Shown: positions 2,579 through 37,595 of the stretch, piece by piece
Layout: every line of letters begins with the position of its first letter
How positions within the stretch are numbered: the stretch's first letter is position 1
Source of the DNA: Paenisporosarcina cavernae
Lineage (GTDB): Bacteria; Bacillota; Bacilli; Bacillales_A; Planococcaceae
DNA length: 64,000 nt
Direction of reading: 5' to 3'
NCBI RefSeq assembly: GCF_003595195.1
Contig: NZ_CP032418.1
Coordinates: 1,500,501-1,564,500 of the forward strand
Made by a program: the position numbers and the translations under genes
Notes under the pieces: generated by a model
Seen by the model: the letters and a program-made list of their open reading frames with translations, nothing else
The model's database searches: none
What the model was told of the DNA's origin: nothing

Positions 2579-3178
2579 CTATCTCTCTATTTCTAGTTGC
2601 ATACGACGCTCAAGTTCCGCCCAAGCTTCATCGAATCCTTTTCCTGTCTCAGCGGAAAAAAGAATGAGTGTATCATGAGCTTCCATATCTAATTCTTCCC
2701 GAATCATTTTCCGGTGCTTTTCCCACTTACCTTTTGGGATTTTATCTGCTTTTGTCGCGATAACCACACACGGAATATTATAATGTTTCAAGAAATCATA
2801 CATCATACAGTCATCATCACTCGGTGGATGACGTAAATCGACGATTTGAACTACTGCTTTTAATACATCTCGACTTGTAATGTATTCTTCAATCATCCGT
2901 CCCCATGCTTCACGCTCTTTTTTGGAAACTTTTGCATATCCGTATCCGGGAACATCCACGAAAAACAATTGTTCTTCAATTTTATAAAAATTTAGCGTTT
3001 GTGTTTTCCCGGGTTTAGAAGAAATTCTGGCCATACTTTTTCTGCCGATCATCTTGTTAATAAAAGACGATTTCCCAACATTCGAACGACCAGCTAAAGC
3101 AAACTCTGGAAGTCCACCTTCTGGATATTGTTCAGGACGAACTGCGCTAATTACTAATTCTACGTTATGGACTTTCAT
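2579..3178 (-). CDS. engB: Ribosome-biogenesis GTPase EngB/YsxC
   Basis: TRAFAC-class GTPase needed for late assembly of the 50S subunit. G1 is GRSNVGKSS near residues 30-38, G3 is DVPGYG near 75, G4 is TKAD near 142 and the SAE of G5 is near 174. Length 199 residues against about 195 in Bacillus. The ATG overlaps the lon stop codon by four bases (ATGA), so the two are translationally coupled, the same arrangement as lonA-ysxC in B. subtilis. Confidence 0.96.
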
Positions 3179-5499
3179 GAGAGTCCTCCTTCTAACGCGA
3201 TACGAAGAACTTCATCTGCTTGTGATACTAATTTAAACGTTAAATCATCACGAACACTTTCTGGAATATCTTCAATGTCTCGTTCATTGTCTTTCGGTAA
3301 AACAATTGTCGTTAAACCTGCGCGGTGAGCGCTTAACGTCTTTTCTTTCACACCGCCTATCGGTAATACTCTGCCACGTAACGTAATTTCACCTGTCATC
3401 CCAACTTCACGTCTAATAGGTCGCTTAGAAAGTGCAGAAACTAACGCTGTAGCGATTGTGATTCCTGCCGATGGACCATCTTTTGGAACTGCCCCTTCCG
3501 GAACATGAATATGAATATCACATGTTTCATGAAAATCAGCATCGAGTCCAAATTCTTCTGATTTTGATCGCACGAAGGACAGAGCAGTTTGAGCAGATTC
3601 CTTCATCACATCGCCTAATTTACCGGTTAATATTAATTTCCCTTTACCTGGAGAAAGCGATACTTCAATTTGTAAGGTATCTCCACCAACAGTCGTATAA
3701 GCAAGTCCTGTTGCCACACCAATTTGATTTTCTGTTTCCGCTTGTCCGTATCGGAACTTGTGCTTTCCAATGAGCTCTTCCAAATTTTTCGTTGAAATAA
3801 TCATTTTTTTCTTTTCAGAAGAAACAACGATTTTTGCTACTTTACGACAAATAGACGCGATTTGACGCTCCAAGCTTCGAACTCCTGCTTCACGTGTATA
3901 ATAGCGAACTAAACTCCGAATAGCATCTTCTCTAATTTGTAATTGAGACTTGGATAGTCCATGCTCCTTTAACTGACGAGGAACTAAATGGTTTTTCGCA
4001 ATTTCTATTTTTTCCATTTCCGTGTATCCAGCAATCGTGATAATTTCCATCCGATCACGAAGTGGACCTGGAATGGTACTTAAATCATTTGCCGTAGCAA
4101 TAAATAGAACATTTGATAAATTATATGGCTCTTCTAGATAGTGATCACTAAAGGAATGATTTTGTTCAGGATCGAGCACTTCTAACATCGCTGCAGAAGG
4201 ATCACCTCGAAAATCATTGGACATTTTATCAATTTCATCTAGTAAAAAGACTGGATTAATCTTTCCAGCTTTTTTCATGCCTTGTATAATTCTTCCTGGC
4301 ATCGCACCTACATACGTTCTACGATGTCCTCGAATTTCCGACTCATCTCGTACTCCACCTAACGAAATTCGTACAAATTGGCGTCCAAGTGATTCCGCAA
4401 TGGATCTTGCCAACGACGTCTTTCCTACTCCTGGAGGGCCTGCTAAACATAAGATCGGGCCACGAAGAGATTGAGTCAATTGACGAACAGCTAAGTATTC
4501 TAATACTCGTTCTTTCACTGATTCTAATCCATCATGGTCACGATTTAATATTTTTTCGGCATGGTGTATATCGAGTCGATCTTTTGTAGCGTCTGACCAT
4601 GGTAAAGAAACAAGCCATTCGAGATAGTTACGAATAACGCCACTTTCCGCAGCTGCTGCAGGAAGTTTTTCATAACGATCTAATTCTTTCAACGCTACTT
4701 TTTTCGTAGATTCTGGCATTTTGACGTCTTCGATTTTTTTCTTCAGATCGGCAATTTCACCAGTTTTTCCTTCTTTATCGCCTAATTCCGTTTGAATTGC
4801 TTTCATTTGTTCTCGCAAGTAAAACTCTTTTTGAGTTCGCTCCATGGCTTGTTTGACTCGTGCGTTAATTTTCTTTTCCATTTGAATAATCTCTTGCTCA
4901 TTATGCAAACGATTCACTAACCATTCTAAACGCTCTAGTACGTCAAACATTTCTAATACTTCCTGTTTCCCACTGATTTTAAGTGGTAAGTACGATGCGA
5001 CCATATCAGCTAATCTACCAGGTTCTTCAATATCAGCTACAGTAGCGTACGTTTCAGATGTTACTTTTTTAGAAACTTTCGAATACTTTTCGAAATACTC
5101 CAAGAGCATTCTCATTAATGCCTCATGCTCAGACGTTTTATCTGTAGAATCGTCATAATTTTTAATCGTTACTTCTGAGAAAGTATCTCCTTCCTCGTAA
5201 TGACTCCATTTTGCACGATTTAATCCTTCGACAAGAACTCGAATCGTTCCGTTCGGAAGTTTAATCATTTGATTTACTTTTGCTAACGTACCCACTTCAT
5301 ACAAATCATCTGATTCCGGATTTTCAACATTCATCTCTTTTTGAGTGGCAAGAAAAACTAAACTATCTGATAGCATTGCATGTTCCAGCGCAGCTACAGA
5401 ACGTTCTCTTCCTACATCAATATGTAATACCATCGTTGGGAAGACCATCAACCCTCTTAGTGGTAATAATGGTACTTGTTGCTGTTTCTTTTTCACCAT
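3175..5499 (-). CDS. lon: ATP-dependent protease Lon (LonA type)
   Basis: AAA+ serine protease that degrades misfolded and regulatory proteins in the cytoplasm. N-terminal substrate-binding domain ([20 protein letters not shown]), Walker A GPPGVGKT near residue 355, Walker B FLLDEIDK, and the Ser-Lys protease domain with [14 protein letters not shown] containing the catalytic Ser. The start is ATG 5499: GGAGGTGA sits nine bases upstream, and the resulting 774 residues match the Bacillus LonA length; the open frame continues 16 codons further without a better start. Followed immediately by engB. The separate lonB gene that lies between lonA and clpX in B. subtilis is absent here. Confidence 0.97.
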
Positions 5500-9489: not shown

Positions 9490-9530
9490 AAAGCGCTGTT
9501 ACTCCCATAAACGGAAATAACGAGCACTTT
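9490..9530 (-). terminator. Terminator of the tRNA-Arg gene
   Basis: Minus-strand AAAGTGCTCGTTA pairs with TAACAGCGCTTT (one bulged C), followed by an uninterrupted run of T. It lies 35 bases after the tRNA 3' end. Confidence 0.85.
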
Positions 9531-9564
9531 TTCTTCATCTACCATCAACCTGCAGATGAACTTA

Positions 9565-9976
9565 CATCCCGGGAGGGATTCGAACCCCCGACCGACGGCT
9601 TAGCTTACCACCATGGCTTTCGCCACCAACTTGTGTTGTTTGTAGTCTGGACTATATCTTCACCATTTCAGGTGCGACACGTGTAGTCTCTACGGAACCT
9701 CACGATAATCATTAGCATGCAATATATTAAGCTTTTGATTATTCTTTGGTGCTTTTACCCTCAAAATTTTAATAAGCCATATTGACCTGTTAAAATCTTA
9801 ATCCTTTAAAGCATCTAAATCCCCAGATGAGATCGTAAGTTTCCTCGGTATTACCATCAGCTTACACTGTTAAGGCTTCACCGATATAGTGTCGTCCACT
9901 TTATAGGTTTCTGTTTCCCTATAAAGGCTCCTATTGTCTTGAAGGCCGTTGCTCTATCCTGCTGAGCTACCGAGAC
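9565..9976 (-). tRNA. tRNA-Arg(UCU), interrupted by an intron
   Basis: Exon 1 is 9976-9942 (35 nt), exon 2 is 9603-9565 (39 nt). Joined they give a 74-nt tRNA: acceptor GTCTCGG/CCGGGAT (with two G-U pairs), D stem GCTC/GAGC, anticodon stem ACGGC/GCCGT with loop CTTCTAA (anticodon UCU), five-base variable loop, T arm GGGGG-TTCGAAT-CCCTC, discriminator G. CCA is not encoded. It reads AGA and AGG codons. The gene has a strong promoter and its own terminator. Without the intron the anticodon arm cannot form, so splicing should be needed for function. Confidence 0.93.
9604..9941 (-). other. Group I intron in the anticodon loop of tRNA-Arg(UCU)
   Basis: 338 nt inserted after U34 (between anticodon bases 1 and 2). 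The 5' exon ends CUU and pairs with GAG (9930-9928) to give P1 with the usual U-G at the splice site. P2 is a perfect UUUAUAGG/CCUAUAAA hairpin (9925-9900). The P4-P6 region contains AUCGGU and ACCGAGG. P7 is GACUA (9688-9684) with UAGUC (9654-9650) in the classic AAGAUAUAGUCC context; P8 is CACC/GGUG (9674-9661); a GAAA-capped GGC/GCC hairpin fits P9. The intron ends in G. No reading frame for a homing endonuclease is visible. It resembles the IC3 introns of cyanobacterial tRNA-Leu. Confidence 0.9.
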
Positions 9977-10015
9977 ATGTACATTCACTTCATTCGAAAA
10001 TGAAAGACAATACTT

Positions 10016-10044
10016 ATTATAGAAATCGCCTGTTTAAAAGTCAA
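10016..10044 (-). promoter_or_regulatory. tRNA-Arg promoter
   Basis: TTGACT (10039-10044), 17-base spacer, TATAAT (10016-10021) on the minus strand: close to the sigma-A consensus. The -35 overlaps the end of rdgB. Confidence 0.85.
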
Positions 10045-19160: not shown

Positions 19161-19400
19161 AAAAAAAGACAGCACATTACGTAAAACGTAAAGGCTGTCG
19201 TTTGCACAAACGAAAAAATCGTTGTGTGAGATAGCCCTCCAGAATCTTATGATTCTGACAGTCCAGTATTTTTTCAATACAGGACCAGCACAAACAATTG
19301 CAAGTTGTTTATACTTCGGCGAATTTCCCTTTCCCATTTCCTCTTCGGAGTAGCTGCTCCTCTTAAACGGTACTGATGATTTTCGCACCTCTATCATCAC
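19161..19400 (-). promoter_or_regulatory. Lysine riboswitch (L box) with terminator, upstream of lysC
   Basis: The aptamer (about 19226-19400) has the L-box landmarks on the minus strand: GATAGAGGTGCGAA, ATCATCAGTA, TCCGAAGAGGAAATGGGAAA, GCCGAAG, ACTGGACTGTC and the closing CTGGAGGGCTATCTC. The expression platform is a terminator: GACAGC / GCTGTC around 19168-19199 followed by seven T. When lysine binds, transcription should stop before lysC. The frame of lysC remains open through this region but that is not translation. Confidence 0.95.
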
Positions 19401-19442
19401 TTTTGAAGTGATAGTATTCAGTGACTCTAAATTATCATATCC

Positions 19443-37335: not shown

Positions 37336-37595
37336 AAAAAAACTCGTCTCCTATAAAAGGGACGAGGTTAATGATCGCGGTACCACCCTGATTATCATAC
37401 GAAACGTATGATCACTTCATTGACATAACGGCGTCTGACCGAATCACCTTTACAATTTAATGGTCCTGGTGTCTGCTCACGGGGTGAACTTCCAAAAACA
37501 GCTACTATCTACACTTTCAGTCATGTTGTAGACTCCCTAAAAATAGCTAATTTTTTGTACTTTTCCCGGTCACTGCATGTTTCTGTTATGAATAT
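37336..37595 (-). promoter_or_regulatory. T-box riboswitch of pheST
   Basis: The T-box AGGGTGGTACCGCG is at 37376-37389; the terminator CTCGTC / GACGAG at 37343-37366 is followed by seven T. Stem I runs to about 37595. A UUC triplet at 37441-37443 in the context GUGA-UUC-GGUC is the probable Phe specifier; a second UUC at 37486-37488 is less likely. Uncharged tRNA-Phe should allow readthrough into pheS. Confidence 0.95.

Follow-up and report, generated by a model that had tools for sequence, protein, structure and literature searches.

A group I intron with a putative homing endonuclease remnant interrupts the single tRNA-Arg(UCU) gene of Paenisporosarcina cavernae

On the minus strand of the stretch of the Paenisporosarcina cavernae genome analyzed here (64 kb, termed the window, whose numbering is used throughout), a tRNA-Arg(UCU) gene at 9976-9565 is interrupted by 338 nt at 9941-9604, which raises the questions of what this insert is, where it came from, and whether the cell can read AGA and AGG codons without removing it. 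ARAGORN run without the intron option found zero tRNAs in the window; with introns allowed, it reported tRNA-Arg(tct) on the complement of 9564-9977, with a 338-nt intron between GCCTT and CTAAG. Exon 1 (9942-9976, minus strand) ends with GGCCUU at U34, and exon 2 (9565-9603, minus strand) starts with CUAAGCC at C35 and does not encode the CCA. Both exons are intact, and their plain join, which reads CTTCTAAG in intronless relatives, gives a canonical tRNA with anticodon UCU, the same as in these relatives. The coordinates 9565-9976 given by the initial annotation, which was made from the letters of the window, were thus exact, and the orthodox tRNA-Arg(UCU) that it had read from the joined exons agreed with ARAGORN. 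The splice bond was fixed by two relatives (G023 and G031) in which the first intron base is T rather than C: since a cut after C35 would alter their anticodon, the bond lies between anticodon bases 34 and 35, as had been proposed, with G as the last base of the intron (9604-9941, minus strand). Just upstream of the gene lies a promoter-like TTGACT-17-TATAAT (10016-10044, minus strand), a consensus match only, with 11 of the 12 consensus bases (four such sites in the stretch versus 2.1 expected); downstream lies a terminator-like hairpin with a T run (9498-9521, minus strand), likewise a consensus match only (one found versus 0.4 expected). Elsewhere in the window, a lysine riboswitch and a T-box leader (19224-19401 and 37355-37582, minus strand) are ordinary.

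To establish the nature of the insert, we compared it with homologous introns. An exact-pattern scan of named genomes gave at least 117 stretches and viral contigs gave 12, at least 129 together; 85 of the 129 had a UCU anticodon, at least six acceptor pairs, and a GGAG guide, and these were retained. With seven introns from relatives and that of the window, the working set comprised 93 introns, 88 of them distinct. In the window, all 48 pairs of the P1-P10 structure are formed (all coordinates on the minus strand). The internal guide (9928-9933) consists of UAG, which forms P10 with exon 2 CUA, followed by GAG, which forms P1 with exon 1 CUU and places a U-G pair at the splice site. P2 (9899-9926) has nine perfect pairs, seven of which are changed on both sides among the homologues; the 5' strand of P3 (9889-9894, partner 9675-9680) is 100% paired, with three of six pairs changed on both sides; and P9 (9613-9626), closed by a GAAA loop, has four of five pairs so changed. 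The P4-P5 domain (9845-9884) and P8 (9661-9674) were delimited by pair counts in homologous introns, and P6 with its long insert (9694-9844) by alignment, pair counts, and fold. P7 is formed by GACUA and UAGUC (5' strand 9684-9688, partner 9650-9654); in most other rows, the search pattern itself prescribed the 5' strand. All the core elements listed by the initial annotation, from P1 with its U-G pair through the perfect P2, P7, P8, and GAAA-capped P9 to the terminal G, were therefore present.

Covariation was measured on the window and 32 of 35 picked introns (below 93% core identity and at most 330 nt). In these 33 introns, 98.2% of the cells of the 48 pairs were formed, compared with 32-39% when one strand was slid by one to three columns; in all 88 distinct introns, the corresponding values were 98.1% and 34-38%, the lowest-pairing row being L163 with 89.6%. 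The three introns left out of the set (L125, L175, and L186) formed 48, 47, and 48 of the 48 pairs. Twenty pairs showed changes on both sides in the 33 rows, 155 cells in total, and none of 500 shuffles was as good on any of five measures, a control that ignores the kinship of the rows. Covariation was strong in P2, P3, and P9 and was seen in places in P4, P5, P6, and P8, and P10 was paired in 86.9% of cells in the 33 rows and in 238 of 262 cells in the 88 distinct rows. P1 and P7 were invariant, and the terminal G was present in 93 of 93 rows; the rows had been selected with a search pattern and scripted rules (GGAG guide and terminal G), which in part enforced the uniformity of P1, the P7 5' strand, and the final G, whereas P2, P4, P5, P9, and the free positions of P3 are independent of the selection. 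The single-strand fold of the window intron had a z-score of -5.3. These results demonstrated that the 338-nt insert is a group I intron.

The initial annotation had stated that the intron has no endonuclease gene. No intact gene is present in it, but within P6 lie pieces of a PD-(D/E)XK homing endonuclease gene of the PF11645 type: part of its front (9797-9824, minus strand), in which 23 of 28 bases are as in the intron of Exiguobacterium sp. s124 (L102), and its tail (9690-9764, minus strand), whose stop codon lies within the conserved GTAGAGACTA of the ribozyme. Among the matches listed, together with the relatives and the window, 15 of 93 introns are long (625-655 nt), and 13 of these 15 contain a stop-free frame of 139-185 codons; the remaining two, which have identical cores, are broken. 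All three of the open frames tested matched Pfam PF11645 (PD-(D/E)XK endonuclease; E values from 1.6e-36 to 2.7e-33), and one matched the solved structure 2ost weakly (E 0.003), which we take to be I-Ssp6803I. When the window intron with a few exon bases was aligned with the 632-nt intron of Exiguobacterium sp. s124, 118 of 122 positions were alike in the first block, which was followed by the 28-base piece of the gene front and then by a block with 156 of 171 positions alike that includes the gene tail. The remnant frame, LRVKAPKNNQKLNILHANDYREVP followed by a stop, matched LRVKTPKNNQKQNILFADDYREVP at 38.1 bits, compared with at most 21.2 bits for 500 base-shuffled inserts; the last six residues of this match, which overlap a P6 strand, carry little weight. 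The window carries fragments with an internal stop, and these alignments indicate that its intron descends from an endonuclease-bearing intron of the PF11645 type. Matches to endonuclease genes at E 1e-5 or better were found in 8 of 78 short introns among the matches listed.

The segment GATTATCGTGAG before the core was at first read as an endonuclease scar, being present in 32 of 50 short Bacillota introns and in 0 of 19 from Pseudomonadota, and was then discounted, since pairing with CTTACGAT as a P6 strand would explain it equally well; the window remnant extends well beyond GATTATCGTGAG. In long introns (L102, L121, L110, and others), the bases that encode the endonuclease tail, stop codon included, also serve the RNA core, as part of the P6 strand and of the joining segment that precedes P7. 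A pair of Exiguobacterium strains, s124 (L102) and s48 (L173), have identical tRNA exons and cores 94% alike, with introns of 632 versus about 280 nt; the endonuclease frame is present in the former and absent from the latter.

The initial annotation had suggested that related genomes be searched for the same intron. Among 61 genomes, including that of P. cavernae, it was found in the tRNA-Arg(UCU) gene of seven others (G004, G005, G008, G019, G023, G031, and G051); among the matches listed, none of these seven showed a second match to exon 1. The loci of the other relatives hold an unbroken tRNA, so the same syntenic gene occurs with and without the intron: the order sdhB, murI, rph, rdgB was found in nine of nine relative stretches and tig in five of nine, and by coordinates the tRNA adjoins rdgB in each of the nine. 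With the core pattern and three mismatches allowed, the intron was detected in 16 of the 121 family genomes sampled, spread over 7 of 19 genera, and in 14 of 200 genomes from the class, representing 6 of 95 genera, with that of P. cavernae counted in both; the reversed pattern, used as a control, had no match in the same genome sets. Within the genus, four of nine genomes carry it. These counts, with kin in Gammaproteobacteria and Bacteroidota and a reported case in Beggiatoaceae (PMC4853749), did not support the rarity in Bacillales that had been supposed for such an intron. In one genome of the genus (G008), a stretch of about 25 kb behind the intron-bearing tRNA-Arg resembles an integrated element, with a phage-type integrase (PF00589; L222, 597-1568) at one end and, at the other (L223, 11704-11823), about 120 bp that exactly repeat the 3' part of the intron plus exon 2. 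The attachment site would thus extend into the ribozyme sequence, and an integrating element would replace the 3' half of the intron with its own.

The history of the window intron has two readings. The core is 94.7% identical to that of Exiguobacterium sp. s124, the nearest among the matches listed, 93.2% identical to that of Terrilactibacillus tamarindi, 90.3% to the Exiguobacterium intron of L173 and G051, and 85.0-86.7% to those of genus-mates. The flanking RdgB shows the opposite trend, with 71-74% identity to the window in four genus-mates and 52.6% in L083, a locus assigned to Exiguobacterium by its intron. Since the core is nearest to that of s124 while the flanking RdgB is nearest to those of the genus-mates, we favored arrival from elsewhere, by transfer from an Exiguobacterium-like donor; the endonuclease remnant, whose best match among those listed is the s124 frame, and the presence of the intron in only part of the genus also speak for transfer. 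The alternative, which concerns the history and not the nature of the intron, is vertical inheritance in the genus and family with many losses. It would account for the occupation of one orthologous gene with conserved synteny at all nine relative loci, and the AU test did not reject a single clade of the window and its genus-mates (p 0.34) or, at 0.05, a clade of 15 family rows (p 0.064). Moreover, on a tree of 93 rows, the introns grouped broadly by host phylum, with seven label changes. We regard vertical inheritance as a possibility to be taken seriously, if a somewhat doubtful one. On the same tree, presence of the long endonuclease-type intron changed at least nine times, the pattern expected from repeated decay or regain.

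To characterize the wider spread of this family, we typed the tRNAs of the 129 pattern loci in two ways. Among these matches, ARAGORN with introns reported 82 Arg(tct), 19 Ser(gct), 17 others, and nothing at 11 loci. A script that applied the splice rule, with base 34 as the end of exon 1 and G as the final intron base, re-typed 105 of 129 as UCU and 8 as other anticodons and left 16 untyped; some of the eight, and a small number of the 105, seem to be wrongly picked, and the share of tRNA-Arg(UCU) is biased, because the search pattern was drawn from tRNA-Arg introns. Among the matches listed, the 93 introns came from Bacillota (56), Pseudomonadota (19), Bacteroidota (11), and viral contigs (5), with one each labeled Rhodothermota and Mycoplasmatota, and the kin of the window intron, in Bacillota, Gammaproteobacteria, and Bacteroidota, lie mostly in tRNA-Arg(UCU). 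Many of the non-Bacillota records are metagenome bins, and isolates such as Niastella yeongjuensis are present too. We proposed that these introns form one homing-driven family, specialized on U34/C35 of tRNA-Arg(UCU), that probably reached at least Bacillota, Gammaproteobacteria, Bacteroidota, and phages, with repeated gain, breakage, and loss of a PD-(D/E)XK endonuclease, and that it would leave many species with one splicing-dependent tRNA for AGA and AGG. Phages as direct donors of the window intron were considered and found unsupported: four viral introns form a long branch of their own, and the remaining one does not differ from the Pullulanibacillus pueri intron. One uncultured 484-kb phage (L070, LR756508.1) has, around 2960-3600, two nearby tRNA genes each with a related group I intron; one was typed as Lys(UUU) by ARAGORN and the other was read manually as Arg(UCU), and the introns were likewise placed at base 34/35 by manual reading. 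In two further loci (L095, from an Ignavibacteria bin, and L191), tRNA-Arg introns of about 660 nt are cut at different bonds by ARAGORN and the splice rule.

The initial annotation had counted the lack of a group I hit by covariance model as evidence against such an intron, and here the outcome was divided. RF00028 scored 17.9 bits on the window intron (E 0.036 on 551 bases), with a curated cut-off of 50, and on the whole genome it gave two matches at E up to 10, of which the window locus was the better. The cut-off was reached by none of 15 homologous loci. Among six loci scanned, L195 and L166 matched at 35 bits (E 1.5e-5 and 2e-5), below the cut-off, and the remaining four gave no match up to E 0.5. 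It was because of this low score that the structure was tested directly, with the clear result described above; the cut-off is the threshold of one broad model and not a defining feature of group I chemistry. The window intron presumably resembles the subgroup IC3 tRNA introns, of cyanobacterial type. Missed by default tRNA finders and by the Rfam cut-off alike, the proposed family would pass unseen.

Whether the cell needs this intron to splice was addressed through its tRNA set and codon use. The genome, 99.94% complete, consists of a single 2.54-Mb contig. RF00005, for which 150 of 187 first-look candidates were scored, gave 77 tRNA matches, none of them at the intron locus, and ARAGORN on the 12 tRNA-bearing stretches typed 77 genes, in which the Arg anticodons were ACG (four) and CCG (one). 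Among these 77 other tRNA genes, in the same scored candidates, no UCU or CCU anticodon was found, and the tRNA-Arg(UCU) locus is single copy. In 37 long non-overlapping window ORFs, chosen by length and not called as genes, AGA and AGG made up 112 of 698 Arg codons and were used in 29 of the 37. Since no other UCU or CCU tRNA was found, splicing should be needed to read AGA and AGG, and the cell should depend on it, as the initial annotation had expected; nor did the 77 genes include the second intact tRNA-Arg(UCU) that would have spoken against it. The broken endonuclease gene and the low Rfam score might instead point to a dead tRNA gene, in which the insert has decayed, splicing has been lost, and AGA and AGG are read in some other way. 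We consider this very improbable, given the complete set of core pairs, the intact exons, the AGR codons in most of the long ORFs, and a tRNA set in which no other gene for them was found. An intron of another kind (group II, archaeal protein-cut type, or IStron), with which length and site alone are compatible and for which no support was found beyond that, has a negligible chance of being correct, because the insert has the group I P3-P7-P8 pseudoknot, the U-G at the 5' site, and the terminal G, and contains no ORF of 60 aa or more, its sole coding traces found being of the PF11645 type.

Taken together, the results make it highly probable that the locus is a decayed mobile group I intron, its ribozyme still working, in the tRNA-Arg(UCU) that reads AGA and AGG. 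After transcription, the intron would fold and its guide GAG would bind exon 1 CUU; an outside guanosine would cut after U34; and P10 would align exon 2, so that the exons could be joined into tRNA-Arg(UCU) and the intron would leave as RNA. The ancestor would have been a mobile intron with a PD-(D/E)XK homing endonuclease in the P6 loop, presumably cutting intron-free tRNA-Arg(UCU) genes; with that gene reduced to fragments, the intron probably can no longer home by itself, and we proposed that it is retained because loss of splicing would be lethal. Translation of two codons in P. cavernae would thus depend on a ribozyme. Such introns may account for the absence of tRNA-Arg(UCU) from the annotation of some genomes, an absence described for Beggiatoaceae (PMC4853749). 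In addition, the range from endonuclease-bearing to wrecked introns provides a natural series in which the homing cycle at a single-copy tRNA could be studied.

Group I introns of bacterial tRNAs include those of Azoarcus tRNA-Ile(CAU) and of alpha-proteobacterial tRNA-Arg(CCU), whose cores the window core presumably resembles, although they lie in other tRNAs and other bacteria. The cyanobacterial tRNA-Leu(UAA) intron sits at the same bond, 34/35, but in a different tRNA; the initial annotation had likened the segment GAGCCUU after P1 to it, and its insertion in the UAA anticodon is described in PMC5733544. In Synechocystis PCC 6803, a 655-nt intron in tRNA-fMet is described as encoding a 150-codon PD-(D/E)XK homing endonuclease, I-Ssp6803I (PMC1995217). 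The long tRNA-Arg introns found here, with 625-655 nt and PF11645 frames, are similar in this respect; however, the tRNA is another one, the endonuclease is distantly similar, and the window copy is broken. The table of a 2014 review places bacterial tRNA group I introns only in cyanobacteria and alpha- and beta-proteobacteria (PMC4033280), the accessible text of a 2014 review of bacterial group I introns has no tRNA-Arg(UCU) case (PMC3984707), and that on tRNAscan-SE 2.0 mentions fMet and Ile2 cases (PMC8450103). In the titles and abstract openings listed from the open-licence PMC literature, a scope outside which most subscription journals lie, we found no Bacillota tRNA-Arg(UCU) intron, and neither a broad phylum range nor a PF11645 gene for an intron in this tRNA. 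The closest known system is that of Beggiatoaceae (BOGUAY, MacGregor 2013; Thiomargarita), for which the article text reports a putative tRNA-Arg(UCU) group I intron (PMC4853749): as in P. cavernae, the same tRNA is interrupted and is missing from the annotated tRNA genes, whereas the hosts are Gammaproteobacteria and the likeness is one of description. Thus, the kind of intron, even in tRNA-Arg(UCU), is already known from Beggiatoaceae, and what appears new relative to the titles and abstracts listed is its occurrence in Bacillota, its breadth, and the PF11645 gene that it carries in tRNA-Arg(UCU).
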